This document shows, piece after piece, positions 4,493 through 48,424 of a stretch of DNA of 64,000 nucleotides; positions within the stretch are counted from its first letter, which is position 1; every line of letters starts with the position of its first letter. The stretch lies in contig JAFEFC010000014.1 in the NCBI GenBank assembly GCA_018240785.1, positions 47,657 through 111,656 on the forward strand. Direction: 5' to 3'. The position numbers and the translations under genes are program-made. The notes beneath the pieces were generated by a model that was not told where the DNA came from, did not search any database, and saw nothing but the letters and a program-made list of their open reading frames with translations. Source of the DNA: Pseudomonadota bacterium (GTDB taxonomy: Bacteria; Pseudomonadota; Gammaproteobacteria; Burkholderiales; Rhodocyclaceae).

Positions 4493-4743
4493 AGATCGCA
4501 AGTCTGGTCGTGCGGGCGATGCCGCGCGATTTCCCCGAGGTGCAGGAGGCCCTGCGCCGCATTCCGGGCGTCGAGCTGCATGGTGCGTCGGCCGAGACCG
4601 GCAAGATCATCGTCACCGTGGAAGACGGTGAGGGCTGGTCGGTCGCCGATTCCATCGTGGCCGTGAACATGGCACCGAAAGTCCACGGCGTGACGCTCGC
4701 CTATGAATACACCGACGAAGGTCTCGAACATCTGGAGGCATGA
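4489..4743 (+). CDS. napD: NapA chaperone NapD
   Basis: The 84-residue protein starts at the ATGA overlap with napF. It has the ferredoxin-fold features of Nap[13 protein letters not shown], the GVELHGA strand-turn, and the central VTVEDGEGW. NapD binds the Tat signal peptide of NapA in the cytoplasm and prevents premature export until the molybdenum cofactor is loaded. The usual length is about 80-90 residues. napA begins one base after its stop, so the two are translated together. Confidence 0.92.
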
Positions 4744-4744
4744 A

Positions 4745-7291
4745 ATGACCATGGATCGACGCGAATTCATCAAGACCAACGCGATCGCTGCCGCGGCGGC
4801 GACCGCCGGCATCGGCATCCCGGTGGTCGCCGAGGCGCAGACCAAAGGGGCGGACGGGACCAAGGTACGCTGGGACAAGGCCGCATGCCGCTTCTGCGGC
4901 ACCGGCTGCTCGGTGCTCGTCGGCGTGCAGAACGGGCGCGTGGTGGCCACCCAGGGCGACCCCGATTCGCCCGTCAATCGCGGCCTGAACTGCATCAAGG
5001 GCTACTTCCTGTCCAAGATCATGTACGGCGAGGATCGCCTCACCAAGCCGCTGCTGCGCATGAAGAACGGCAAGTACGACAAGAACGGCGAATTCACGCC
5101 GATCACCTGGAACCAGGCGTTCGACATCATGGCCGAGAAGTGGAAGGCCGCGATCAAGGCCACCGGGCCGGATTCGATCGCGATGTTCGGCTCCGGTCAA
5201 TGGACGATCTGGGAAGGCTATGCCGCCTCCAAGCTGTACAAGGCGGGCTTTCGCACCAACAACCTCGACCCCAATGCGCGCCACTGCATGGCCTCCGCGG
5301 TGGCGGGCTTCATGCGCACCTTCGGTATCGACGAACCGATGGGCTGCTACGACGACATCGAGAACACCGACACCTTCGTGTTGTGGGGCTCGAACATGGC
5401 GGAGATGCACCCCATCCTGTGGAGCCGCATCACCGACCGGCGCCTGTCCAAGGAGGGCACCGAAGTCCACGTGCTGTCGACTTTCGAGCATCGCTCGTAC
5501 GAGCTCGCCGACAACCCGATGATCTTCGTGCCGCAGACTGACCTGGCGATCCTCAACTACATCTGCAACCACATCATCCAGACCAAGCGGGTCAACACCG
5601 CTTTCGTGAATCGCAACGTGAAGTTCAAGCTGGGCGAGACCGACATCGGCTTCGGCCTGCGCCCCAATCACGTGCTGGAGGCCAAGGCCACCAATAACGG
5701 CTATCCCGACGCCGAGGGCAAGCCCAAGGGCGACACCGGTGCCGCCAAGGACATCAGCTTCGACGAATTCGCGAAGTTCGTCTCCACCTACACTGCCGAA
5801 TACACCTCCAAGCTGTCCGGCGTGCCGGTGGACAAGCTCAAGCGCCTGGCCGAGGTCTATGCCGATCCCAACCGCAAGGTGGTGTCGTTCTGGACCATGG
5901 GCTTCAATCAGCACACCCGCGGCACCTGGGTGAACAACATGATCTACAACGTCCACCTGCTGGTGGGCAAGATCAGCGAACCCGGCAACAGCCCGTTCTC
6001 GCTCACCGGCCAGCCTTCCGCCTGCGGCACGGCGCGCGAAGTCGGCACTTTCTCGCACCGCCTGCCGGCCGACATGGTCGTCACCAACCCGGTGCATCGC
6101 GCGCATACCGAGGAGATCTGGAAGCTGCCCGAAGGCACCATCCCGGCCAAGGTCGGCCTGCATGCGGTGGCGCAGAGCCGCGCGCTGAAGGACGGCAAGA
6201 TCAAGTGCTACTGGACCACCACCACCAACAACATGCAGGCGGGTCCCAACGTCAATGGCGAGGTCTACCCGGGCTGGCGCAATCCGGAAGCCTTCGTTGT
6301 CGTGTCGGACGTGTACCCGACCGTGTCGGCGCTGTCGGCCGACCTGATCCTGCCGAGCGCGATGTGGACCGAGAAGGAAGGCGCCTTCGGCAACGCCGAG
6401 CGCCGTACCCAGTTCTGGCGCCAGCAGGTGTCCGCGCCCGGCGAGGCCAAGTCCGACCTGTGGCAGTACATGGAGTTTTCCAAGCGCTTCAAGGTCGAGG
6501 AAGTGTGGCCGGCCGAGCTGATCGCGAAGAAGCCGGAGTACAAGGGCAAGACCTTGTTCGACGTGCTGTACGCCAATGGCCAGGTGAACAGGTTCCCGCT
6601 CACCGACGTCGAGAAGGCGAACGGGCATGCCATCAAGGGCTACATGAACGACGAGTCGAAGGCACTCGGCTTCTATCTGCAGAAGGGCCTGTTCGAGGAA
6701 TACGCGATGTTCGGTCGCGGCCACGGCCATGACCTCGCCGATTTCGACATGTACCACAAGGCGCGCGGCCTGCGCTGGCCGGTGGTGGAAGGCAAGGAGA
6801 CCCTGTGGCGCTTCCGTGAGGGCTACGACCCGTACGTGAAGACCGGCGAGGGCGTGAAGTTCTACGGCCACAAGGACAACAAGGCAGTGGTGTTCGCGCT
6901 GCCCTACCAGGATCCTCCCGAGAAGCCCGACGCCGAGTTCGACATGTGGCTGTGCACCGGCCGCGTGCTGGAGCACTGGCACACCGGTTCGATGACGCGC
7001 CGCGTGCCCGAGCTGCACAAGGCGGTGCCCGAGGCGCAGATCTTCATGCATCCGGACGACGCCACCAAGCGCGGCCTGCAGCGCGGCATGACGGTGAAGG
7101 TCGCCTCGCGTCGCGGCGAGATCGTCGCCCGGCTGGAGACGCGCGGCCGCAACAAGCCGCCGGTGGGCTTGATCTTCATCCCCTTCTTCGACGAGGGCCG
7201 GCTGGTGAACAAGCTCACGCTGGACGCCACCTGCCCCATCTCGAAGGAAACCGACTACAAGAAGTGCGCGGTGAAGGTGACCAAGGTCTGA
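4745..7291 (+). CDS. napA: Periplasmic nitrate reductase catalytic subunit NapA
   Basis: The 848-residue molybdoprotein reduces nitrate to nitrite in the periplasm. A Tat signal (DRREFIK followed by an alanine-rich stretch) leads into the [4Fe-4S] motif CRFCGTGC with its fourth ligand in LNCIKGY. Cys181 in ARHCMAS is the expected molybdenum ligand between the two pterin guanine dinucleotides. The C terminus carries the typical cofactor-binding cap ([11 protein letters not shown] ... MHPDDA). Two starts are possible, 4745 (MTMDRRE) and 4751; the signal peptide is the same. It sits between napD and napG and receives electrons through NapB from NapC or NapGH. Confidence 0.97.
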
Positions 7292-31095: not shown

Positions 31096-32505
31096 ATGAA
31101 ACTGCATTTTCTGGGCGCTGCGCGCGAAGTCACCGGGTCGTGTTTCTTGGTGGAAGGGCTCAACGTACGCTTCCTGGTGGATTGCGGCATGGTTCAGGGC
31201 GGCCGCACGGCGGCGGCCCGCAACCATGAGCCATTCCCGTTCGACCCGGCGTCGATTGATTTCGTGCTCCTGACCCATGCCCATATCGACCATAGTGGGC
31301 TATTGCCAAAACTCACGCGCGCCGGGTTCAAGGGGGCCATCTACGCCACTCCCGCCACGGTTGATCTGCTGGGCGTGATGCTGCCCGACAGTGCCCACAT
31401 CCAGGAGAGCGATGCAAAACGCAATGCGCAGCGACTCCGCGGAAAGGACGCACTGCCGCCTCTGTATACGCTGCAGGATGCCAGCGACTGCTTGCAGCAG
31501 GTGCGAGGCATCGAATACGACCGGGAGTTCGCGCCCCGCGTCGGGGTGCGCGCCCGTTTCCGCGATGCCGGGCACATTCTTGGGTCGGCCATCATCGAGG
31601 TCTGGGTCACCGAATATGGCTACCCGACAAAGCTCGTTTTCAGTGGCGACCTCGGCCAACCGGCGCGCCCGATACTGCGCGACCCGACAACCATCGAGGA
31701 CGCCGACATCCTCGTCATCGAGTCCACCTACGGCAACCGCCAGCACAAGGATTTCTCGGCGACCGAAGAGGAAATGATCGGCATCGTCGAAAAGACATTG
31801 TTCGAACGCGGCGGCAATGTCATCGTGCCGGCCTTCGCGGTCGGCCGAACCCAGGAAATCCTTTATCACCTGCACCGACTCACCTGCGAGGGGCGGCTGC
31901 GGCAACCGAAGGTATTCGTCGATTCGCCAATGGCCACGCAGGCCACGCGCATCACGCGAGAACATCTCGAATTGTTCGACGAACAGGCGAAACGGTTGGC
32001 AGGATGGCACGCGCGCGGCGAGAACCTCCCATACCTGAGTTTCACAGCGAGCGCTGAGGAGTCCATGGCGCTGAACCGGATCCGCTCCGGGGCCATCATC
32101 ATTTCTGCCAGCGGCATGTGCGATGCGGGACGTATCCGGCACCACCTGCGCCACAACTTGCCGCGCCGGGAATGCAGCATCTTGTTTACCGGTTTCCAGG
32201 CGCAGGGGACGCTTGGCCGACGCCTGATCGAGGGGGCCGAACGCGTGCGCATCTTCGGTGAGGACATTCCAGTACGTGCTGCAATCCACAGCGTGGATGG
32301 CCTCTCGGCGCATGCCGACCAAAAGGCGTTGCTGGATTGGGCTCGGGGTTTTATTCACCCCCCGGCGCAAACCTTCGTGGTGCATGGGGAACTGTCCGCC
32401 GCCCAGACCTTCGCCGAACTCTTGCAACAGCAACTCGGCTGGCAGGTCACGGTGCCCGAGCATGGTCATGCGCTGCGCTGGCCGGACTTTCTGGCGCACG
32501 AGTGA
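31096..32505 (+). CDS. Metallo-beta-lactamase/beta-CASP RNase-like protein
   Basis: The 469-residue protein has the metallo-beta-lactamase motif THAHIDHSG, further ligands (DAGHILGS, FSGDLG), the beta-CASP domain (PAFAVGRTQEILYHL, FVDSPMA) and the C-terminal RNA-specificity motif (SVDGLSAHADQ). This family includes RNases and the eukaryotic CPSF-73 endonuclease, so an RNA substrate is expected. It overlaps the LOG gene by one base, which links the two. Confidence 0.92.
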   Translation: MKLHFLGAAREVTGSCFLVEGLNVRFLVDCGMVQGGRTAAARNHEPFPFDPASIDFVLLTHAHIDHSGLLPKLTRAGFKGAIYATPATVDLLGVMLPDSAHIQESDAKRNAQRLRGKDALPPLYTLQDASDCLQQVRGIEYDREFAPRVGVRARFRDAGHILGSAIIEVWVTEYGYPTKLVFSGDLGQPARPILRDPTTIEDADILVIESTYGNRQHKDFSATEEEMIGIVEKTLFERGGNVIVPAFAVGRTQEILYHLHRLTCEGRLRQPKVFVDSPMATQATRITREHLELFDEQAKRLAGWHARGENLPYLSFTASAEESMALNRIRSGAIIISASGMCDAGRIRHHLRHNLPRRECSILFTGFQAQGTLGRRLIEGAERVRIFGEDIPVRAAIHSVDGLSAHADQKALLDWARGFIHPPAQTFVVHGELSAAQTFAELLQQQLGWQVTVPEHGHALRWPDFLAHE

Positions 32506-38667: not shown

Positions 38668-38707
38668 CGCTTCTTCTCGGTTCATGCCATTCGACGAGGA
38701 GAAGCCC

Positions 38708-39574
38708 ATGCAGGTGGTGTCCATCATTTCGACCAAGGGCGGCGTGGGCAAGACCACGACGGCGGCCAACCTGGGCGGCTTCATCGCCGATGCCGGGCTG
38801 CGCGTGCTGCTGCTGGACCTGGACGTGCAGCCCACGCTGTCGAGCTACTTCACGCTGGACGTTCGCGCGCCCGGCGGCATCTACCAGATGCTGGCCTTCA
38901 ACGAGCGGCGCATCGAGCAACTGGTGTCGCGTACCGTGATCGCGGGCCTGGACCTGGTGCTCTCCAACGACGACCGCGGCGAACTGAACACGCTGCTGCT
39001 GCACGCTCCGGATGGGCGCCTGCGACTGCGCCATCTGCTTCCCGTCTTCCGCACGCACTACGACTTGCTGCTGATCGACACCCAGGGCGCGCGCAGCGTG
39101 CTGCTGGAGATGGCGGTGCTGGCGTCCGACCTGGCGCTGTCGCCGGTGACGCCGGAAATCCTCGCGGCGCGCGAGCTGCGGCGCGGCACGCTGCAACTGA
39201 TCGAGGACATCGCGCCGTATCGGCACCTGGGCATCGAGCCGCCGCCGCTGCGTCTGCTCATCAACCGTGTGCATCCTGTGTCGTCGAATGCGCGGCTGGT
39301 CCAGCAGGCGCTGCGACAGGTGTTTCAGGAACAGGCCGGCGTGCAGGTGCTGGGCACCGACGTACCGGCCATCGAAGCCTATCCGCGCGCTGCGACACGA
39401 GGATTGCCGGTGCACCGGGTGGAGTACCGGCAGCCGGCTGGGCGCACGGCGCCCGCGGCGTTGGAGACCATGCGCACGCTGGCCGGCGAACTGTTCCCCG
39501 TGTGGCGGGAGCGCTTCGCGCTGGTCACCGGTCGGGCCGATGCGGGAGGGGCCGGCCATGGCGAGCGCGCATGA
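38708..39574 (+). CDS. parA: ParA-family partition ATPase
   Basis: The 288-residue protein has the deviant Walker A STKGGVGKTTTAANLGG and Walker B LLLIDTQGAR. The ATG at 38708 follows GAGGAGAAG; an upstream ATG at 38684 lacks one. ParA/Soj of this ICE class supports maintenance of the excised circle. It overlaps the HicA-like gene by 17 bases. Confidence 0.92.
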   Translation: MQVVSIISTKGGVGKTTTAANLGGFIADAGLRVLLLDLDVQPTLSSYFTLDVRAPGGIYQMLAFNERRIEQLVSRTVIAGLDLVLSNDDRGELNTLLLHAPDGRLRLRHLLPVFRTHYDLLLIDTQGARSVLLEMAVLASDLALSPVTPEILAARELRRGTLQLIEDIAPYRHLGIEPPPLRLLINRVHPVSSNARLVQQALRQVFQEQAGVQVLGTDVPAIEAYPRAATRGLPVHRVEYRQPAGRTAPAALETMRTLAGELFPVWRERFALVTGRADAGGAGHGERA

Positions 39575-39794
39575 ACTGGCGCGCGGCCGCGAACGGCTGC
39601 GCGCGCTGATCGAGTTCGCGCTGGGCGAAGGCTGGCGCGTGGTTCGCACGTCCGGCGGGCACCTGAAATTCACGAAGCAAGGCTGCGCGTCGATCTACAC
39701 CAGCTCGACGGCGAGCGACAACCGTGCCGACCGCAATGCCCGCGCACAGCTTCGCCGCGCCGACCGGCAAGCGCAGGAGAATGGCCGTGGCTGA
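39558..39794 (+). CDS. HicA-like RNA-binding protein
   Basis: The 78-residue protein has the HicA core: GWRVVRTSGGHLKFTKQG, with the catalytic-type histidine preceded by glycine, in a small alpha-beta fold. HicA toxins are mRNA interferases normally paired with HicB. No hicB-like gene is adjacent; this gene is packed between parA and parB with overlaps on both sides. It may be a domesticated relative rather than a toxin. Confidence 0.65.
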   Translation: MASAHELARGRERLRALIEFALGEGWRVVRTSGGHLKFTKQGCASIYTSSTASDNRADRNARAQLRRADRQAQENGRG

Positions 39795-41445
39795 GCTGAC
39801 GCCGCAGGACATGGCTGCCAAGCTGCTGGCCACCGGCTTCGAGCGCAGCGGCCCTTCGGCCGCGACCTTGAGCGACCCCATCGCCGACACGCCGATGGTG
39901 GTGACGCTGGACCAGTTGCGGCCCTACGACCACGACCCACGCGTGACGCGCAACCCGGCCTATGCGGAGATCAAGGCGTCCATCCGCGAACGTGGGCTGG
40001 ACGCGCCCCCCGCGATCACGCGCAGGCCGGGCGAGGCGCACTACATCATTCGCAACGGCGGCAACACGCGGCTGGCGATCCTGCGCGAGTTGTGGAGCGA
40101 GACCAAGGAGGAACGCTTCTTCCGCATTGCGTGCCTGTTCCGCCCGTGGCCGGCGCGCGGCGAAATCGTGGCGCTGACCGGGCATCTGGCCGAGAACGAG
40201 CTGCGCGGCGGGCTGACCTTCATCGAGCGGGCGTTGGGCATCGAGAAGGCGCGCGAGTTCTACGAGCAGGAAAGCGGCCAGGCGCTGTCGCAGAGCGAAC
40301 TCGCGCGGCGACTGACTGCCGACGGCTATCCGGTACCGCAGTCACACATCAGCCGCATGAACGATGCGGTGCGCTATCTACTGCCAGCGATCCCGACGCT
40401 GTTGTACGGCGGATTGGGCCGGCATCAGGTGGACCGGCTCGCGGTGCTGCGCAAGGCGTGCGAGCGCACCTGGGAGCGGCGGGCGCTGGGCCGCACCGTG
40501 GCCGTGGACTTCGCCACCTTGTTTCAGGACGTGCTGACGCAGTTCGACACACAGCCGGACGACTTCTCGCCGCAGCGGGTGCAGGACGAGCTGGTGGGCC
40601 AGATGGCCGAGCTGCTGGAAGCGGACTACGACACGCTGGCGCTGGAGATCAACGACAGCGAAAGCCGCCAGCGTGCGCTGACCAGCGAACCGGCGGCACC
40701 GACGCCACCGGCAGCGCCTGTCGTGCCTGCTGCTCCTCCCCCGCCGGTCTCCGTGCCTCGGCAGCCACCCGCCTCGTCTGTGCCGCGCGACGCCACGCCG
40801 GTCGCGCCTCCGGCGCCAGCAGCGACACCGCCTGCATCGCCCGAAGCGCCGGAGGACCAGCACGGGCAACGCGACGAGCGCCTGCAAGGGCACATCGTGA
40901 CACCGGCACCGACCACCGAGCGCCTGCAGTCCATCCAGCGGATGGTCGCGGACCAGCTCGGCGACAAGCTGCCCGACTTCGAGGCCGATGCGCTGCGTGC
41001 GATCCCCGTGCAGGTCGGCGGGCTCTATCCCATCTCGGACGTCTGGTACGTCGAGCCGGGGCTGGACGTGCCAGATCGCCTGCGCGTGCACATCGCGCAG
41101 TTCGCGCGCGAGATCGCCGGGGAAGCGGCGGTCGCCGACCACATCGAGGCCAGCGTCGGCGGCATCGGCTTCGTCTGCGTGGCGCCGGCCTCGGGCCAGG
41201 CGAAGGCGCTGCCGGCGTTCGCGCGGGCGGTGCTGACCCTGCTGCATGCGCTGAGTGCGGCTCCGCCCTCCGCGAACGGATTGGACCGCGCGCGGCTGGC
41301 CGACGAGCTGGCGGCGCTGCTGCATGGCCACGGCGGCTCGGCCACACGCCTGAGCGATGCTGCGCTGGTGAAGCTGTTCCGTCTGCTGCGCCTGGCGCGC
41401 CGGCTGCTGGACCTGGAAGCCGGTGACCCGGGCCACGAGTCCTGA
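39787..41445 (+). CDS. parB: ICE ParB-family protein (PFGI-1 class)
   Basis: The 552-residue protein has a ParB/Srx-type nuclease-like domain at the N terminus (LRPYDHDPRVTRNPAYAEI, IRNGGNTRLAIL) and a helix-turn-helix region (QSELARRLTADGYPVPQSHISR). A proline/alanine-rich linker (about 305-370) leads to a C-terminal domain seen only in this ICE family. I prefer the GTG at 39787, seven bases from AGGAG; the ATG at 39781 is only one base from it. It probably binds the ICE centromere-like site. Confidence 0.88.
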   Translation: MAELTPQDMAAKLLATGFERSGPSAATLSDPIADTPMVVTLDQLRPYDHDPRVTRNPAYAEIKASIRERGLDAPPAITRRPGEAHYIIRNGGNTRLAILRELWSETKEERFFRIACLFRPWPARGEIVALTGHLAENELRGGLTFIERALGIEKAREFYEQESGQALSQSELARRLTADGYPVPQSHISRMNDAVRYLLPAIPTLLYGGLGRHQVDRLAVLRKACERTWERRALGRTVAVDFATLFQDVLTQFDTQPDDFSPQRVQDELVGQMAELLEADYDTLALEINDSESRQRALTSEPAAPTPPAAPVVPAAPPPPVSVPRQPPASSVPRDATPVAPPAPAATPPASPEAPEDQHGQRDERLQGHIVTPAPTTERLQSIQRMVADQLGDKLPDFEADALRAIPVQVGGLYPISDVWYVEPGLDVPDRLRVHIAQFAREIAGEAAVADHIEASVGGIGFVCVAPASGQAKALPAFARAVLTLLHALSAAPPSANGLDRARLADELAALLHGHGGSATRLSDAALVKLFRLLRLARRLLDLEAGDPGHES

Positions 41446-41464
41446 GCGCGCAGGAGGCTCCCGT

Positions 41465-42025
41465 ATGTCGGCACCGCACCCGCTCAACCAAGCCGTGATC
41501 GCCCAGGCCCTGCATGACCTGCGCAACGGCCAGTTGCGCCGCTGCAAGGCCATGGGCTTCGGCGAGGAGGAGCTGGATGCGCTGAAGCACCCCGAACTCG
41601 TGAGCATGCTGGTGAATGCCACGGTGTCGTGGTGTTCGGTGTCGGTGAACCGGGAGGTGTTGAAGCGGCTGCTGAGCCAGGTGCACGACGTGGAGCGGGA
41701 GATCGCCACGGTCGACCGCATGCTGCGCCTGGGAGCGAGCACGGAGATGGTCAGCAAGTTCTACGGACTCACGCATCAGGAAGTGGCGCTGCGCCGCGAC
41801 ATCCTCGGGCTGCCCAAGCGCAAGGGCCGGCATCCGGTGCTCGACGAGGCGCAGGACGTGGCCTTGTGGGAGCACTGGAAGGCCGGCGTCGCCGAGCGCC
41901 ATGTCGCCCTGACCGACGACACGGCGATGCTGGCGCTGACCATGGACCTGGCCGAGGCGCTGAGCCTGCCGATGTCGGTGATCTGGTCGGCGATACGGAA
42001 CTGGATCGACCAGGGGCTGGTGTAG
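41465..42025 (+). CDS. DUF2857 ICE protein
   Basis: The 186-residue protein matches DUF2857 as I remember the family: it begins with LNQAVIAQALHDLRNGQLRRC and has EREIATVDRMLRLGAS ahead of a helix-turn-helix-like TEMVSKFYGLTHQEVALRR. DUF2857 genes lie between parB and the STY4528 gene in PFGI-1-like ICEs. The start has AGGAGG eight bases upstream. A DNA-binding role is likely but unproved. Confidence 0.75.
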   Translation: MSAPHPLNQAVIAQALHDLRNGQLRRCKAMGFGEEELDALKHPELVSMLVNATVSWCSVSVNREVLKRLLSQVHDVEREIATVDRMLRLGASTEMVSKFYGLTHQEVALRRDILGLPKRKGRHPVLDEAQDVALWEHWKAGVAERHVALTDDTAMLALTMDLAEALSLPMSVIWSAIRNWIDQGLV

Positions 42026-42027
42026 CC

Positions 42028-43221
42028 ATGACCACGGGCGGCGCACCACGGCGCGATGGCCCGGTTGCGCTGTCGGCGTTGTTCGACGAGGCGCTGCGGC
42101 ACCTTGAGCCGAAGGAACCGGCGCAGGGCACGGCGCCGAACCAGGACGGTTTTCTCTACAGCGGCAACCGGCACGAGAGCGTGCCGCGCGCGCTGTTCCT
42201 CGACCGACGCCTGACGCCGCTGGAGCGCAATGCCTGGCAGGTGTTCCGCCTGCAGCTCAACGACGACGGCGTGACCGCCTTTCCCACCTACGACCAGCTC
42301 CGCCCCTATTTGGCGTCCATGCCCTGTGCGGCGCAAGCCTCGCACGAGACCGTGGCGCGCGCCTTGACGCTGCTGCGGCTGACGCGCTGGCTCAGCCTGG
42401 TGCGGCGGCGGCGCGATCCCAAGACCGGCCGCATCCAGGGGAACCTCTACGTGCTGCACGACGAACCGCTGTCGCCCTTCGAGGCGATGCAGCTCGACCC
42501 CGACTATCTGGGCCTGGTGAGCCAAGCGCTCACGCACGCGGCGAAGGCGGTGCAGGTCGTGGGCATGAACACGCTGCGAGAGATCGCCGAAGACCCCCTG
42601 CTCAGCGGACGCACGCTGCCGACCCGTCTGCAAGTGCTGGCGCAGCGCATGGCGCGGCATGGCTGGACGACGCCAGATTATCCACAGGCGGGTGCGGACC
42701 ACGAATCCGAAGAAGGCCAGGAAGCCCTGCTTCGGAATGACGCGCGCCCGTCTTCGGAATCCGAAGCAGGGCCGAAACCCGCGCTGGACAGCTCTCTTCG
42801 GATTCCGAAGGAGGACCGTACAGTACGTAATGATCGTATAAATGAAGTACGTACAGTACCGCGCGCGAGGGCCTTGCAGAACCTGCGGCTGCCCGAGCGT
42901 TTTCTGCGCTTGAAGGACGAGCAGCAGGCCGGCGCACTGGTGGCGCTGCAGCAGGTGGACGAGGCGCAGCGGCAGGCCGTTCTTGACGAGTGGGCGGCAC
43001 GCTGCCGCAACAGCGCGGTACGCAACCCGGCCGGCTACCTGTTCGGCATCATCCAGAAGGCGATCCGCGGGGAGTTCAAGGCCTGGGCCGGAGAAAGTGC
43101 ATCGGCGCCACCAGTGCCCCCGCCACCTGCGCCATCGTCACCGCCGGCATCCCGTGCGACTGACCCCGAGGTGGCACGTGCCTACCTGGCACAGCTCCGA
43201 GAAGCCTTGCGTGATCGCTGA
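42028..43221 (+). CDS. STY4528-family ICE replication protein
   Basis: The 397-residue protein has an N-terminal winged-helix-like domain (LERNAWQVFRLQLNDDGVTAF ends after LERNAWQVFRLQLND, then SHETVARALTLLRLTRWLSL) and a helical C-terminal part (LPERFLRLKDEQQAGALVAL ... AGYLFGIIQKAI). A disordered acidic linker spans about residues 220-280. The family is described as pathogenicity-island replication proteins. The DNA coding for the linker carries a DnaA box and repeats (next feature), as in the lambda O gene. It lies two bases after the DUF2857 gene. Confidence 0.82.
   Translation: MTTGGAPRRDGPVALSALFDEALRHLEPKEPAQGTAPNQDGFLYSGNRHESVPRALFLDRRLTPLERNAWQVFRLQLNDDGVTAFPTYDQLRPYLASMPCAAQASHETVARALTLLRLTRWLSLVRRRRDPKTGRIQGNLYVLHDEPLSPFEAMQLDPDYLGLVSQALTHAAKAVQVVGMNTLREIAEDPLLSGRTLPTRLQVLAQRMARHGWTTPDYPQAGADHESEEGQEALLRNDARPSSESEAGPKPALDSSLRIPKEDRTVRNDRINEVRTVPRARALQNLRLPERFLRLKDEQQAGALVALQQVDEAQRQAVLDEWAARCRNSAVRNPAGYLFGIIQKAIRGEFKAWAGESASAPPVPPPPAPSSPPASRATDPEVARAYLAQLREALRDR
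42678..42859. other. Candidate replication origin (oriV) inside the STY4528 gene
   Basis: TTATCCACA at 42678-42686 is a perfect DnaA box. The half-site TCCGAAG (or CTTCGGA) occurs six times between 42706 and 42810. Two pairs form 15-bp palindromes, CTTCGGAATCCGAAG (42752-42766) and CTTCGGATTCCGAAG (42796-42810). An AT-rich stretch (42827-42850, 17 of 24 bases A/T) follows, bracketed by direct repeats of GTACAGTAC at 42818-42826 and 42851-42859. The order DnaA box, iterons, AT-rich region is that of a theta-type origin. The encoded linker is low complexity, so the DNA could evolve as an origin. Confidence 0.6.
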
Positions 43222-43227
43222 TGTTGA

Positions 43228-43244
43228 CTATCCCCAGGGGATAG
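43228..43244. promoter_or_regulatory. 17-bp palindrome, copy 1
   Basis: CTATCCCC-A-GGGGATAG, perfect inverted repeat with a one-base centre, 108 bases upstream of the HEPN/OST-HTH gene. It is followed by CTGGAACAAACACCCTTCCG, which resembles the sequence after copy 2. Confidence 0.7.
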
Positions 43245-43351
43245 CTGGAACAAACACCCTTCCGCCGTGTTCGATTGCCGCCCGCCGAACCACCGGCGAA
43301 ACTGTCGCCTGTGAATCAGATGAGGACAGCCACGCACGAGCCCGGCCGACG

Positions 43352-44212
43352 ATGGACATGACGACTTCCCCCGCCACAAACGCACTGCAACCACTACAGC
43401 GAGAAGTTCAGCGCTTGCTGGGCAGATGCCTATTGCGCCTTCAACAATACGAGCGCCTCATGAAAGCCATCGTGGCCCACCACGAGATTTCAGGCCCGGC
43501 GCATTCGCTGGAGTCCATTCGCGCAGCGCGGATTGAAGATGCCGCGACCAAGACCCTGGGCACGTTGGTCGGACAACTGTTTGGTTCGTATGTCGTCACC
43601 GATGGAAATGGTGGCGAGGAACGCGACGACGATCTTCCCGGCGACGCGGTTTCCTTTCGCACGCGCGTGCAACTGAGCCTGTCTGCGCAGGACTACGCCA
43701 AGACCCAGGCCGATCTCAAAGACCTGGTATCGCTGCGCAACACACTGGTGCACCACTTCATCGACCAGCACGATCTATGGACCGTGGACGGGTGTCGCGC
43801 TGCACAGGACGAACTCGGTTCCGCCTACACGCGCGTCGATCAACACTTCGAGCAGCTGCGCGGCTGGGCCGAGCACATGGATCAGGCGCGGCGCCTGGCA
43901 GCGGAATTCGTCCAGTCGGACGTGTTCCACGACCTGGTGGTCAATGGCATCGCGCCGGACGGCACGGTGGACTGGTCGGCCGCCGGCATCGTTCGTGCGC
44001 TGCGCGAGGCCGCCGCGCAGTTGGCCGTCGAGGGCTGGACACCCATTGCCGCCGCTGGCCGCTGGATCGCGGACCGGCATCCCGAGCAGCTTCCAGCCAA
44101 GTACGGCTGCAGCAGTTGGCGGCAGGTGGTGCACGAGTGCCGCCTGTTTGAGCTTCGCTACCGTGAGGTGGAGGGGCAACGGGCCGCTTGGTACAGACCT
44201 CGCGAAGCATAG
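43352..44212 (+). CDS. HEPN-like / OST-HTH (LOTUS) domain protein
   Basis: The 286-residue protein has an N-terminal all-helical domain with LRNTLVHHF, where Arg129-Asn130 and His134 give the RNxxxH motif of HEPN ribonucleases. The C-terminal part (about 222-270: WTPIAAAGRWIADRHPEQL, then KYGCSSWRQVVHECRLFEL) matches the OST-HTH/LOTUS RNA-binding domain. Together they suggest an RNA-targeting protein. It sits alone behind the palindrome at 43228. OST-HTH proteins are known on related ICEs; the HEPN assignment is mine. The start is ATG 43352; no strong ribosome site is seen. Confidence 0.65.
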   Translation: MDMTTSPATNALQPLQREVQRLLGRCLLRLQQYERLMKAIVAHHEISGPAHSLESIRAARIEDAATKTLGTLVGQLFGSYVVTDGNGGEERDDDLPGDAVSFRTRVQLSLSAQDYAKTQADLKDLVSLRNTLVHHFIDQHDLWTVDGCRAAQDELGSAYTRVDQHFEQLRGWAEHMDQARRLAAEFVQSDVFHDLVVNGIAPDGTVDWSAAGIVRALREAAAQLAVEGWTPIAAAGRWIADRHPEQLPAKYGCSSWRQVVHECRLFELRYREVEGQRAAWYRPREA

Positions 44213-44262
44213 CCCCGCAACGCGGTCTCACCTCCGCGCGAGCCGCGAACACATCCGCCGAG

Positions 44263-44279
44263 CTATCCCCAGGGGATAG
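44263..44279. promoter_or_regulatory. 17-bp palindrome, copy 2
   Basis: CTATCCCC-A-GGGGATAG, identical to copies 1 and 3, 121 bases upstream of the PFL_4669-family gene. The following bases CGGCACAAACAGCCTTCCG match those after copy 1 at most positions, so the conserved unit here is about 38 bp. Confidence 0.7.
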
Positions 44280-44400
44280 CCGGCACAAACAGCCTTCCGC
44301 GCGGAACAAACCGGGCGCGCATGGGCTGCGGTTTGTTGACTGACAGCCTTCCGGCCGATGCCGATGCTGGCGACTCGCCCCTTCACCGCGAGTCGCTCAC

Positions 44401-45189
44401 ATGGCCAACGAACGCACAGAAACCCTGCAACTGAATCTCGGATCGCTGCGCAGCGCGATGTCGCTGACGCTGCACACGCACCACGCTTCGCGCATCTGGC
44501 ACGGCCGCGCGCCGACCGAGGGGCGCCCCGGCATCATCGGTCTCAACGGCTTCATCGGCGCCATGAACAAGATGAAGCGCGGCGCCGAGCAGGATGACCC
44601 GTACTCGGACTGGTGGATGTTGAGGATCGAGGACAAACTCGCCGACACCAAGACCCGTCTGCAGACCCTGCGCGAACAGGTGGACCAGGCCTTGGCCGAC
44701 GTGCCAGCGGCGCTGTCGCTGGGCGAGAACATGAACGTGCAGCCGGTGAAGCTGCCGCTGTTCGTGAACGCCCAGCTCGGTTTCATAGCGGTGTATCTGC
44801 TGGCCGACTACGACGACTTGGCACGCAAACTCATCCTGGCGCACCACACGGCGCTGATCGACCGCAGCACCTTGGAGCGCTGGCTCAATGATGGCGCGCA
44901 CGCGCTGCGCAGCCTGTTCTCGCTGGCCCAGCAGTACCGCTACTCGGGCACGACGCGCGACGACTTCGCGGCGAAGAACGCGGCGGCGCGAGCGGCGCTG
45001 GAGAAGTTCGGCGAGTTGCCGCAGGACGTGCTGGAAGGCACGCGCCGCTCGCGCTTCGCGCCACCCATCGCGCGGCGGACGAACAAGCCCGGCACGCCGC
45101 CTGCTGCGCCTGCCATCGTGCCCGATGCGCAGGCTCCCACGGGTGGCGCAGCCGATGGTGCGGCGGGCGATGAGGGTGCTGGCGCATGA
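44401..45189 (+). CDS. ICE protein, PFL_4669 family
   Basis: The 262-residue protein has HTHHASRIWHGRAP and GIIGLNGFIGAMNKMKRGAE near its N terminus, followed by a helical middle (LADTKTRLQTLREQVDQALA) and a low-complexity tail. These are features of the PFL_4669 family from PFGI-1-class ICEs, as I recall it. It starts behind palindrome copy 2 and overlaps the DUF3158 gene by four bases. Its role in replication or processing is not established. Confidence 0.8.
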   Translation: MANERTETLQLNLGSLRSAMSLTLHTHHASRIWHGRAPTEGRPGIIGLNGFIGAMNKMKRGAEQDDPYSDWWMLRIEDKLADTKTRLQTLREQVDQALADVPAALSLGENMNVQPVKLPLFVNAQLGFIAVYLLADYDDLARKLILAHHTALIDRSTLERWLNDGAHALRSLFSLAQQYRYSGTTRDDFAAKNAAARAALEKFGELPQDVLEGTRRSRFAPPIARRTNKPGTPPAAPAIVPDAQAPTGGAADGAAGDEGAGA

Positions 45190-45734
45190 CAGCATCGCCC
45201 CCTATCAGCCACTCCACGCGCTTCGTGGCGCTGGAACAGGCGGACTTCCAGCGGCTGGAACACGCAGGCTACCTAAAAGGCCTTTTACAGCCTTTTAAGG
45301 GTAAGGGGAGTCTGGAGACCTGGGCCAGCCAGTGCGCTGCGCTGCGCGACGACGTGATTGGCCTGGCACAGCGGCGCGTGCTGCCCCAGGCGCGCGCCTA
45401 TCCATTCAGTCTGCTCGACGTGCAACTGGCCCAGCAGGCCACTGGCGCAGGGACGACCTTCCTGCGCTGGCGCAACCTCGACCGTTCCTCCATGGGCGTG
45501 GCGTTGTGGGAGGCCCTGCTGGCCAACCCCGCGACGCCAGCCGCGCTGATCGACGAGCTGTACGCGATCGAACTGCAGCGCATCGTGCTGAACATGCAGA
45601 TCAGTCTGACCCACAGCATCGCTCGCCAAGCCCTGGAATGCGCCAACAAGGCCGCGCAGGCCGAAGCGGCTTACCTGCGGCGCGTCCACGGGCATACCGC
45701 GTCCGTTCCACCCACCACCAAGGAGTCACCATGA
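45186..45734 (+). CDS. DUF3158 ICE protein
   Basis: The 182-residue protein includes FQRLEHAGYLKGLLQPFKGK and TTFLRWRNLDRSSMGVALWE, typical of DUF3158 proteins found just before ssb in this ICE class. A small run of A/T-rich codons near 45270-45300 departs from local GC. It overlaps both neighbours by four bases, so PFL_4669, DUF3158 and ssb form one coupled unit. Confidence 0.78.
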   Translation: MTASPPISHSTRFVALEQADFQRLEHAGYLKGLLQPFKGKGSLETWASQCAALRDDVIGLAQRRVLPQARAYPFSLLDVQLAQQATGAGTTFLRWRNLDRSSMGVALWEALLANPATPAALIDELYAIELQRIVLNMQISLTHSIARQALECANKAAQAEAAYLRRVHGHTASVPPTTKESP

Positions 45735-46114
45735 GCACGCACTTCGTCGGCGAGGGCAACATCGGTTCTGCGCCGGACTACCGCGAATTTCCGAACGGCA
45801 ACGACGAGCCGCGCCGGCTGCTTCGCCTGAACGTCTACTTCGACAACCCGATCCCGAAGAAGGACGGCGAGTACGAAGATCGCGGCGGATTCTGGGCGCC
45901 CGTGGAGCTGTGGCACCGCGACGCCGAGCACTGGAAGACGCTGTACCAGAAAGGTATGCGGGTGCTGGTCGAGGGCCGCACCGTGCGCGACGAATGGGAG
46001 GACGCCGACGAGAACGAGCGCGTGACTTTCAAGGTCGAGGCGCGGCGCGTGGGCATCCTGCCGTACCGCATCGAGTCGGTGGCGCTCAGCGCCAAGCCGG
46101 CCGGCGGACAGTAA
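45731..46114 (+). CDS. ssb: Single-stranded DNA-binding protein, ICE type
   Basis: The 127-residue OB-fold protein begins MSTHFVGEGNIGSAPDYREF and has GGFWAPVELWHRDAEHW and GMRVLVEGRTVRDEW, as in Ssb proteins. The acidic Ssb C-terminal tail (DDDIPF) is absent, as it often is in element-encoded versions. It should protect single-stranded ICE DNA after transfer or during rolling replication. Confidence 0.88.
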   Translation: MSTHFVGEGNIGSAPDYREFPNGNDEPRRLLRLNVYFDNPIPKKDGEYEDRGGFWAPVELWHRDAEHWKTLYQKGMRVLVEGRTVRDEWEDADENERVTFKVEARRVGILPYRIESVALSAKPAGGQ

Positions 46115-46181: not shown

Positions 46182-46198
46182 CTATCCCCAGGGGATAG
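46182..46198. promoter_or_regulatory. 17-bp palindrome, copy 3
   Basis: CTATCCCC-A-GGGGATAG, 210 bases upstream of topB. The flanks differ from copies 1 and 2, which isolates the 17 bp as the conserved core. Confidence 0.65.
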
Positions 46199-46408: not shown

Positions 46409-48424
46409 ATGCGCGTGTTCCTGTGCGAGAAGCCGTCCCAGGGCAAGGACATCGCCCGTGTGCTGGGTGCCGGTCAACGCGGCAACGGCTGCTACAGCGG
46501 CGCCGGTGTCGTCGTGACCTGGTGCATCGGTCATCTGGTGGAGGCGGTTCCACCCGAGGGCTACGGTGAGCAATACAAGCGCTGGGCCATCGAGCAACTG
46601 CCCATTCTTCCTGAGCGTTGGCGTGTCGAGCCCAAGGCGGCGACCGCAGCGCAATTCAAGGTCGTGCAGCAGCTCGTCGCCAAGGCGGGCGAGCTGGTAA
46701 TTGCGACCGACGCCGACCGCGAGGGCGAGATGATTGCCCGCGAGATCATCGACCTGTGCGGCTACCGCGGGCCGATTCAGCGCCTGTGGCTGTCGGCGCT
46801 CAACGATGCGTCGATCCGCAAAGCGCTGGGTGCGCTCAAGCCGTCCGCCGAGACGCTGCCGCTGTACTTCTCCGCACTCGCCCGATCGCGCGCCGACTGG
46901 CTGATCGGGATGAACCTGAGCCGCTTGTTCACACTGCTGGGGCGCCAGGCCGGCTATACCGGCGTGCTGTCGGTGGGGCGCGTGCAGACGCCGACGCTGA
47001 AGCTGGTGGTGGATCGTGATCGCGAGATCGCGCGATTCGTCTGCGTACCGTTCTGGGCCATCGAGGTTGCGCTTTCGCATGCAGGCCAGTCCTTCGTCGC
47101 AAGCTGGACGCCGCCGCAAGGCAGCACCGACGATGCGGGCCGCTGCCTGCAACAGCCGGTGGCGCAGCAGGCCGCCGAGCGCCTGCGCACGGCCGGCTCC
47201 GCCCAGGTGCTGTCGGTAGAAACCGAGCGCGTTCGCGAAGGGCCGCCGCTGCCGTTCGACCTGGGCACGCTGCAGGAGGTGTGCTCCAAGCAGTTGGGCC
47301 TCGACGTGCAGGAGACGCTGGACATTGCCCAGGCGCTGTACGAGACGCACAAGGCGACAACGTATCCGCGCTCGGATTCGGGCTACCTGCCCGAGAGCAT
47401 GCTGGCCGAGGTACCGACCGTACTCGACAGCCTGGTCAAGACCGACCCCAGCCTGCGGCCGCTGATCGAGCGCCTGGATCGCCAACAGCGCTCGCGTGCA
47501 TGGAACGACGGCAAGGTGTCGGCTCACCACGGCATCATCCCGACGCTGGAGCCCACCAACCTGTCGGCCATGAACGAGAAGGAACTGGCCGTCTACCGGC
47601 TGATCCGCGCTCATTACCTCGCGCAGTTCCTCCCGCACCATGAGTTCGACCGGACGGTGGCGCAGTTCTCGTGCGGCAGCCAGTCGCTGGCGGCCGTGGG
47701 CAAGCAGATCGCCGTCACCGGCTGGCGCGAGGTGCTGGCATCGCCGGCACCGGACGATGCCGATGGCGAGGATGCGCTGCGCAGCCAGGTTCTGCCCGCC
47801 CTGCATGCGGGCCTGTCCTGCCCGGTCGGAAAGGTGGATCTCAAGGCGCTGAAGACGCTGCCGCCCAAGCCCTACACGCAGGGCGAGCTGATCAAGGCCA
47901 TGAAGACCGTCGCCAAGTTCGTGACCGACCCGCGGCTGAAACAGAAGCTGCGAGATACCACCGGCATCGGCACCGAGGCGACACGCGCCAACATCATCAA
48001 CGGTCTGATCGGTCGCGGCTACCTGGTCAAGAAAGGCCGTGCCGTCCGCGCTTCCGACGCGGCATTCACGCTCATCGACGCGGTGCCCTCGGCCATCGCC
48101 GACCCCGGCACCACGGCGGTGTGGGAGCAGGCGCTCGACATGATCGAGGCCGGCCAGATGGCGTTGGACACCTTCATCGAGAAGCAGTCCGTGTGGGTCG
48201 GTCAGCTCGTGCAGCAGTACCGCGGCGCGACGCTCTCGCTCAAGCTGCCGCCGGTGCCGGCCTGCCCGCAGTGCGGCGCACCGATGCAGCAGCGCACGGG
48301 CAAGAGCGGCGCGTTCTGGTCCTGCTGGCGCTACCCGGACTGCAAGGGCACGTTGCCGATCGAGTCCCCGACGGGCCGACGCAGCGCACCGCGCAAGCGG
48401 CGCGCTGCCTCCAAGGCGTCCTGA
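46409..48424 (+). CDS. topB: DNA topoisomerase III (type IA)
   Basis: The 671-residue enzyme has the Toprim motifs CEKPSQGKDIA and IATDADREGEMIAREI. The catalytic-tyrosine region falls within KATTYPRSDSGYLPESML, and a zinc-finger-like CPQCGAPM ... CWRYPDCKG lies at the C terminus. TopB decatenates or processes single-stranded regions; such genes are constant in this ICE family. The start has AAGGAG. The 294-base leader holds palindrome copy 3. Confidence 0.94.
   Translation: MRVFLCEKPSQGKDIARVLGAGQRGNGCYSGAGVVVTWCIGHLVEAVPPEGYGEQYKRWAIEQLPILPERWRVEPKAATAAQFKVVQQLVAKAGELVIATDADREGEMIAREIIDLCGYRGPIQRLWLSALNDASIRKALGALKPSAETLPLYFSALARSRADWLIGMNLSRLFTLLGRQAGYTGVLSVGRVQTPTLKLVVDRDREIARFVCVPFWAIEVALSHAGQSFVASWTPPQGSTDDAGRCLQQPVAQQAAERLRTAGSAQVLSVETERVREGPPLPFDLGTLQEVCSKQLGLDVQETLDIAQALYETHKATTYPRSDSGYLPESMLAEVPTVLDSLVKTDPSLRPLIERLDRQQRSRAWNDGKVSAHHGIIPTLEPTNLSAMNEKELAVYRLIRAHYLAQFLPHHEFDRTVAQFSCGSQSLAAVGKQIAVTGWREVLASPAPDDADGEDALRSQVLPALHAGLSCPVGKVDLKALKTLPPKPYTQGELIKAMKTVAKFVTDPRLKQKLRDTTGIGTEATRANIINGLIGRGYLVKKGRAVRASDAAFTLIDAVPSAIADPGTTAVWEQALDMIEAGQMALDTFIEKQSVWVGQLVQQYRGATLSLKLPPVPACPQCGAPMQQRTGKSGAFWSCWRYPDCKGTLPIESPTGRRSAPRKRRAASKAS

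Follow-up and report, generated by a model that had tools for sequence, protein, structure and literature searches.

Integrative and conjugative elements (ICEs) carrying a gene of the STY4528 family are common, 306 stretches encoding relatives having been recovered in one scan of contigs, and the multiplication reported for them after excision differs, being relaxase-dependent in ICEclc (PMC6561031), plasmid-like in SGI-4 (PMC7716197) and multi-copy in pKLC102 (PMC7685784); these and the later sources are cited for the passages concerned. The locus described here raises the question of where on such an element vegetative replication could begin. It lies in a window of 64,000 nucleotides (the whole stretch of DNA analysed, positions 47,657 to 111,656 of contig JAFEFC010000014.1) from a member of the Rhodocyclaceae, in an element that we take to be ICEclc-like, judging mainly from gene order. 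The gene in question (42028..43221, + strand) encodes a 397-aa protein that scored 412.4 bits against the NCBIfam model NF040582 (curated cut-off 130), which places it in the STY4528 family, and it is a candidate replication initiator gene containing an origin. An earlier reading of the sequence (the original prediction) had proposed an origin in the part of this gene that encodes a disordered linker, and this interpretation is supported by the comparative sequence analysis reported here. We put at about 0.82 the probability that the block from 42678 to ~42864 serves the ICE as its vegetative replication origin (oriV), situated in the linker-coding DNA of its own initiator gene and bound by the product of that gene. 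If this is true, such mobile elements could multiply plasmid-like after excision from an origin of their own, and it would be explained how some family members live as plasmids without a recognised replicon type. With a candidate origin delimited and a candidate initiator named, the replication question could be tested using a 1.2-kb construct.

Motifs and selection in the linker-coding block

The DnaA box, six half-sites, palindromes, AT-rich stretch and bordering repeats listed in the original prediction were all found at their places. The DnaA box TTATCCACA (42678..42686, + strand) is the single exact copy in the window, where 0.08 are expected. The half-site TCCGAAG occurs six times, three per strand, at 42706(+), 42730(-), 42752(-), 42760(+), 42796(-) and 42804(+), and 6 of the 13 copies in the window fall within these 105 bp, for which the shuffle expectation of 7.84 per 64 kb corresponds to ~0.013 by hand calculation. 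Two half-sites are single (42706..42712, +, and 42730..42736, -), and the others form two 15-bp palindromes of the type CTTCGGA[A/T]TCCGAAG, namely the palindromic iterons CTTCGGAATCCGAAG at 42752-42766 and, 44 bp away, CTTCGGATTCCGAAG at 42796-42810. The half-sites cannot be put down to a repeated peptide, since they are not all in the same reading frame. Beyond the palindromes, two + strand copies of GTACAGTAC (42818..42826 and 42851..42859), the only ones in the window against 0.03 expected, form the left and right borders of an AT-rich stretch at 42827..42850, a candidate DNA-unwinding element, and the right border is followed by a GC-rich block at 42859..42865. The lowest-GC 30-mer of the gene overlaps the AT-rich stretch with a GC content of 0.30, compared with a lowest value of 0.53 elsewhere and 0.68 for the whole gene. 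The 15-bp palindrome is found at eight places in the 4.7-Mb host genome, two in each of its four STY4528 genes and none elsewhere, and the reversed control pattern has no copy in that genome. A chance origin of the motifs was rejected on the excess of repeats and box over expectation and on the genome-wide restriction of the palindrome to STY4528 genes.

Selection at the DNA level was examined using the best 80 of the 306 stretches (L005-L084), which were aligned with the window and with L004, L085 and L086 to give 84 sequences, 76 of them distinct; L001 was excluded as a copy of the window. Of the six search peptides one comes from the linker; owing to the degeneracy of back-translation, it does not select synonymous codons. 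Among the 76 distinct sequences, the ratio of observed to expected (O/E) synonymous changes is 0.35 in 42678-42859 and 1.12 elsewhere, the lowest value among 213 other windows of the same size is 0.85, and none of 20,000 random codon sets reaches the value of the linker. The ratio is 0.117 for the 29 motif codons, 0.606 for the 33 linker codons between them and 1.121 for the remaining 335. When changes are counted by parsimony, with the linker excluded from tree building, the averages per base are 0-0.71 for the motifs, 1.67 for the AT-rich stretch, 3.57 for other linker bases and 2.58 for the rest of the gene, and the motif bases are thus frozen words within a fast-changing linker. The two single half-sites are unchanged among the 76 sequences, and the changes per base are 0.33 for the DnaA box, 0.27 for the CTTCGGAATCCGAAG iteron and 0.60 for the CTTCGGATTCCGAAG iteron, 0.44 and 0.67 for the left and right GTACAGTAC repeats and 0.71 for the GC-rich block. 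Codon 217 encodes G, S, D or T in different sequences, but its third base, with which the DnaA box starts, is kept. The conserved block reaches a few bases beyond the proposed interval (42678-42859), to ~42864.

The repeats are retained among the 80 close relatives, with the exact DnaA box present in 76, at least three TCCGAAG in 79, at least three CTTCGGA in 74, two copies of TTCGGAWTCCGAA in 73, two of GTACnGTAC in 74 and at least one GTACnGTAC in all 80. The complete set, consisting of the exact DnaA box, three or more half-sites on each strand and the GTACnGTAC pair, is found in 65 of the 80. In the Pseudomonas and Stutzerimonas loci L036 and L037, the STY4528 frame stops early in the C-terminal tail (1113 nt) and the linker motifs are intact.

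The same pattern was obtained in an independent clade comprising 12 STY4528 genes from Erwiniaceae plasmids. These genes share another palindrome, of the GGTTCGGAATCCGAACC type, with the border words TTACGTACGTA and ACATACGTAC, and their synonymous O/E is 0.09 for 26 motif codons, 0.81 for the 25 linker codons between them and 1.08 for the other 340, with 0.41, 1.69 and 1.13 changes per base, respectively. The synonymous-site comparison proposed with the original prediction therefore gave an extreme result, centred on the motifs and repeated independently, and it is nearly certain from these alignments that 42678 to ~42864 is a DNA element under strong selection. Two features expected of an iteron-type theta origin, repeated initiator-type sites under DNA-level selection and an adjacent AT-rich stretch, were found. 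A DnaA box is common in such origins and not required.

The layout was then followed in a family-wide set of 44 STY4528 genes, ranging from close to distant and with a few near duplicates among them. The linker has 2.5 inverted repeats on average, whereas synonymously shuffled linkers have 0.65 and the remainder of the gene, after scaling, 0.69; the excess is individually significant (p <0.05) in 16 of the 44 by count from the table. The most AT-rich 30-mer of the gene sits in the linker in 40 of the 44, the window included, and in most distant STY4528 genes this linker likewise combines an AT-rich stretch with adjacent palindromes, which are of other types. The palindromes are of the type GAGTTCGG..CCGAACTC in P. 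aeruginosa pY89, GTTCGG..CCGAAC in Salmonella, Klebsiella, Serratia, Citrobacter and Pantoea, and AGTTCAAA..TTTGAACT or ACTTCAAA..TTTGAAGT in other genomes, and ICEHin1056 has arrays of AGTTCC..GGAACT in its STY4528 gene. The spacing between detected palindromes is exactly 44 bp in 18 of the 44 genes (count from the table), and 45 and 54 bp also recur. In the genes whose sequences were inspected, the AT-rich part is mostly flanked by GTAC words or by GTAGTAG..CTACTAC. The AT-rich stretch of L088, L095 and other distant linkers opens with TAGTAGTAG runs, which are reminiscent of DnaA-trio elements.

The STY4528 protein as candidate initiator

AlphaFold2 (AF2) models predict a winged-helix domain at residues 64-143 (42217..42456, + strand), with the order helix-helix-helix-strand-strand and a recognition helix at residues 106-118 (42343..42381, + strand), and a C-terminal helical domain at residues 290-346. 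The mean predicted local distance difference test (pLDDT) score is 65.6 for the whole protein and 77.4 for the N-domain, and the linker is predicted to be disordered, as had been proposed, with pLDDT <50 at residues 221-281. A fold search of the PDB gave no significant match for the full model or the N-domain, a sequence search of the PDB at E up to 1 gave no STY4528 relative, and the best match in a viral fold search (E 0.002) was a poor superposition, the matches being to helix-turn-helix and unnamed proteins.

Covariation between protein and palindrome was assessed in the 33 of the 44 genes to which a half-site label was assigned by hand, L098 and L099 being labelled from one half-site each and L087, L089-L094, L096, L097, L100 and L102 remaining unlabelled; L036 was left out of the structure alignment. 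In each of the 33 labelled genes the outer palindrome base is predicted by residue 106, at the start of the predicted recognition helix, with H accompanying CTTC, R or K accompanying GTTC, E accompanying CTTC (L088) and T accompanying TTTC (L101); three of the residues are singletons. Residue 106 ranks second of 347 columns, and the first is residue 261, a linker residue coded by the palindrome itself. Residue 107 predicts the inner pair, which is GG where the residue is E and differs elsewhere, and shares the first rank with residue 65. L092, L093 and L096 have single half-sites, and if these are added residue 106 is right in 35 of 36 by hand count. The sequences share ancestry, so the covariation reflects few independent changes. 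Since residues 106-107 vary together with the palindrome bases, STY4528 is likely to be the binder of the palindromes, the covariation being a strong pointer and not proof. These two residues and the half-site also provide a sequence handle by which elements could be sorted by replication specificity.

The C-terminus of STY4528 resembles that of RepC, the initiator of repABC plasmids, although membership in RepC is not claimed. Aligned with hhalign, the RepC-like segment at residues 311-352 (42958..43083, + strand) matches RepC C-termini with a probability of 92.5 and E 4.9e-7, compared with probabilities of 0.1 and 0.2 for cross-domain controls. A full-length profile comparison aligns the winged helices of the two families on each other (E 1.3e-4, probability 54), and the N-domain alone gives a probability of 2.3. 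At E up to 1, the Pfam model RP-C_C matches the STY4528 genes of five out of eight genomes or records, always below its cut-off (ICEHin1056 at 3.8e-4, pY89, pTM3, G242 and all four copies of the host genome); its match in G122 lies elsewhere than STY4528, and none was found in pSGI4 and pRHBSTW-00903_3.

These features suggest a sequence of events. STY4528 would be made in the excised element, and its N-terminal winged helix, to judge from the covariation, would bind the TCCGAAG sites, comprising the two full palindromes 44 bp apart and the two single half-sites. DnaA would dock at the adjacent box in those elements having one, and the AT-rich stretch between the GTACAGTAC repeats, given its position and composition, would open. 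The RepC-like C-terminal domain, held on the flexible linker, may then help to recruit the helicase, presumably host DnaB here, whereas SPI-7-type and Haemophilus elements would use the DnaB that they encode themselves. Theta replication would give a few copies and protect the excised element from loss. On a broader view, which we favour with some reserve, all STY4528-bearing ICEs (the SPI-7, pKLC102/PFGI-1, ICEclc/PAGI-2 and ICEHin1056 types) would be built on one repABC-like replicon, a distant RepC relative carrying the origin in its own linker-coding DNA, in which the specificities of the protein (two residues of one helix) and of the site form one heritable cassette and would change jointly. 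Replication specificity could then drift without separation of the two.

Precedents, reported replication and alternative explanations

The original prediction had compared the site with the origin of phage lambda in gene O, and the layout fits: in lambda, the linker-coding DNA holds dyad iterons with an AT-rich stretch behind them, and O has a DNA-binding N-domain and a separate C-domain. No sequence relation to O was shown, as PHROGs gave no O-like match for the window protein (six proteins scanned) and gave weak ones (E 0.028 and 0.036) for the distant members L113 and L120, and RepC of repABC plasmids is the nearer precedent. The likeness to the repABC system of Rhizobium etli p42d (PMC3155836) includes the order ParA-ParB-initiator, the AT-rich region and an origin (here a candidate one, by sequence evidence) within the coding sequence of the initiator, besides the similar C-terminal segments and, more tentatively, the winged-helix region aligned in the full-length comparison. 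Silent changes in the AT-rich region of p42d repC abolish replication, and complementation of p42d repC in trans did not succeed (PMC3155836). The systems differ in that p42d repC is described in the cited passage as lacking iterons and DnaA boxes (PMC3155836), whereas the STY4528 gene of the window has both, and in that a DUF2857 gene lies between ParB and initiator in the window module. Recognisable iterons inside the initiator gene are also described for pAD1, pSX267, pAMbeta1, pLS32, pSK1 and pSK41 (PMC3155836); those plasmids have other initiators, whereas the STY4528 sites are palindromes of 15-17 bp, for which a spacing of 44 bp is frequent. Three records of a phage collection matched STY4528, two being faecal scaffolds (E 1e-54, the source of L125, and E 2e-44) and one a Salmonella record (E 6e-3).

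Among related elements, PFGI-1 has a putative oriV of ~1.1 kb immediately upstream of PFL_4669, with four palindrome copies and, in addition, downstream direct repeats, and its authors state that the element encodes no Rep protein (PMC2647930). This is the same gene neighbourhood as here, the published palindrome shares the core TTCGGAATCCGAA with the window palindrome, and an exact copy of it lies within the STY4528 reading frame of L125 (3592-3615); PFL_4668 should be the STY4528 gene, judging from gene order. The putative oriV of ICEHin1056, proposed from iteron-like repeats (PMC2258188), lies in the same neighbourhood, and the STY4528 gene of that element holds the arrays given above. The view that no origin had been described at this site in the ICE family must therefore be narrowed, as the putative oriVs of these sister ICEs are on record. 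The cited passages neither place the origin inside an initiator gene nor name STY4528 as initiator. A literature search on STY4528 and its product name found neither in the title or abstract of matching papers.

Plasmid-like replication is reported for SGI-4, a STY4528-bearing ICE found as a plasmid in strain BBS 1406, with 2.36 copies per cell predicted from sequencing (PMC7716197), and pKLC102 reaches up to 30 circular copies (PMC7685784). The pSGI4 record (L120, L133 and L134; source BBS 1406) has the module, and its STY4528 gene contains four palindromic sites of the GTTCGG type, one of them imperfect. According to the PLSDB gene table, which is incomplete, the circular plasmids pSGI4 and pRHBSTW-00903_3 have this module and no classical Rep, and the replication-labelled genes of pSGI4 are STY4528, dnaB-PI and a STY4534-family 'ICE replication protein', pRHBSTW-00903_3 being alike. 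STY4528 is the best initiator candidate in these plasmids and not the only one. The STY4534-family gene comes after topB in SPI-7-type elements (L120, L124 and their records), and no match to that family was found among nine window frames examined.

Several observations weigh against an origin bound by STY4528 at this site. The two replication-labelled companions just named mean that STY4528 does not stand alone in the plasmid members, and in ICEclc the copy number after excision is dependent on the relaxase TraI and on oriT1 (PMC6561031). A very small share of four-focus cells is left in the ICEclc mutants, which according to the authors may point to further mechanisms (PMC6561031), and relaxase-dependent and oriV routes may coexist. 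Taken alone, the window is unremarkable against synonymous shuffles (two inverted repeats versus 1.04, p 0.24; best 7-mer p 0.10), so that the evidence is comparative, and it is not among the 16 genes with an individual excess of inverted repeats. The linker lacks a perfect inverted repeat in six of the 44 genes, and the exact DnaA box is absent in 4 of the 80 close relatives and, by the pattern used, in most distant genes. RP-C_C scores 14.2 bits on the window protein, below its gathering cut-off of 32.6, and at E up to 1 it also matches in 5 of 14 control genomes. Lastly, the same palindrome is found in four modules of one genome, which makes it probable that the integrated site is silent or causes no incompatibility.

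Of the other explanations, the one that the palindromes are parS sites bound by ParB of the ICE, encoded by a neighbouring gene, and serve segregation instead of initiation is unlikely. It draws on the presence of ParB in the same module and on the often palindromic nature of parS sites. A search of 29 genomes or records with STY4528 detected ParB in 26, the misses being G154 (95% complete, 240 contigs), G208 (87%) and the 4.7-kb record G370, so ParB and the palindromes are rarely apart and ParB absence is unusable as a test. The half-site bases, however, track residues 106-107 of the STY4528 helix (the covariation was run on STY4528 columns), the array adjoins an AT-rich stretch in most genes, and a second, intergenic palindrome class, described below, is a better parS or operator candidate than the linker palindromes. 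The block might instead be a real but vestigial plasmid origin in an ICE now replicating only from oriT via its relaxase, as the fall of ICEclc copy number in traI and oriT1 mutants would allow (PMC6561031). This is judged improbable, given that the motif bases are almost frozen beside linker bases changing faster than the rest of the gene, which indicates recent selection, and that SGI-4 replicates as a plasmid (PMC7716197).

The palindromic sites and the frequent self-regulation of initiators would also suit an operator within the gene, bound by STY4528 or another regulator and controlling transcription, but the site lies 650-840 bp into the coding region and its layout, with the AT-rich stretch and, in this clade, the DnaA box, is that of an origin, which leaves an operator very improbable. 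Still less probable is an RNA structure in the mRNA, for which the folding of 42690-42870 (z -5.6, with none of 200 shuffles folding as well) could be cited. Palindromes pair by construction, which explains this z value, and the fold lacks covariation; the 29 predicted pairs outside the motifs show 6 double-change cells among the 76 sequences, pairing there is lower (92.1% vs 99.1%), and Rfam over 41400-45400 at E up to 1 gave no match at the site and one sub-threshold match elsewhere (41501-41557). Constraint at the protein level or chance repeats are given almost no weight. The linker amino-acid sequence is fairly conserved among close relatives, but protein-level constraint was rejected, because the constraint acts on synonymous sites and the third base of codon 217 is kept while its residue varies.

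Module context and the second palindrome class

The order of the module is ParA - ParB - DUF2857 - STY4528 - LOTUS-domain gene - PFL_4669 - DUF3158 - ssb - topB. On the + strand, a ParA-family ATPase (38684..39571, family match) is followed by the ParB-family protein ICE_PFGI_1_parB (39724..41442; TIGR03764, 401 bits), in which the model starts at residue 49 of the frame, so the true start may be further in, and by the DUF2857 protein (41423..42022; PF11198). Downstream of STY4528 lie a LOTUS/OST-HTH-domain gene (43352-44212), a PFL_4669-family protein (44401..45186, +; TIGR03761), a single-stranded DNA-binding protein (ssb, 45732..46111, +; NF006039, 243 bits, cut-off 70), the start of which is approximate as the match begins at residue 134 of frame 45332-46111, and DNA topoisomerase III (topB, 46409..48421, +; TIGR01056). 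Each of the four STY4528 genes of the host genome is near a ParB gene (G000 contigs C5, C9, C29 and C30), and the four modules, all with the same 15-bp palindrome, represent the same candidate origin coexisting in one genome.

The second palindrome class occupies three intergenic places in the module, just after the STY4528 stop codon (CTATCCCCAGGGGATAG, 43228..43244), upstream of the PFL_4669 gene (44263..44279) and upstream of topB (46182..46198). The copy after STY4528 is a candidate parS or operator and not an iteron. One to three copies of the class are present in the stretch of each of the 80 relatives, and the nine copies in the host genome are all on the four contigs with STY4528 modules. 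By location, these CTATCCCC palindromes are the better candidate for parS or a shared operator. Two 38-nt near-repeats (92%), 43228-43265 and 44263-44300, flank the LOTUS/OST-HTH-domain gene, as if the gene had been inserted between two copies. In L113, 57-bp tandem repeats (6286-6912, 8 copies found) with GTGATGCGGCCCGCATCAC palindromes come right after STY4528; they are presumably the oriV repeats of pKLC102, and perhaps the counterpart of the CTATCCCC class.

Elsewhere in the window, 31096-32502 encodes a beta-CASP metallo-beta-lactamase-type protein that reaches 399 of 800 bits, below the cut-off, with the NCBIfam type VII Cas14 model. NapA periplasmic nitrate reductase and cytochrome c biogenesis genes (4703-7288 and neighbours) lie upstream of the module and are perhaps cargo.

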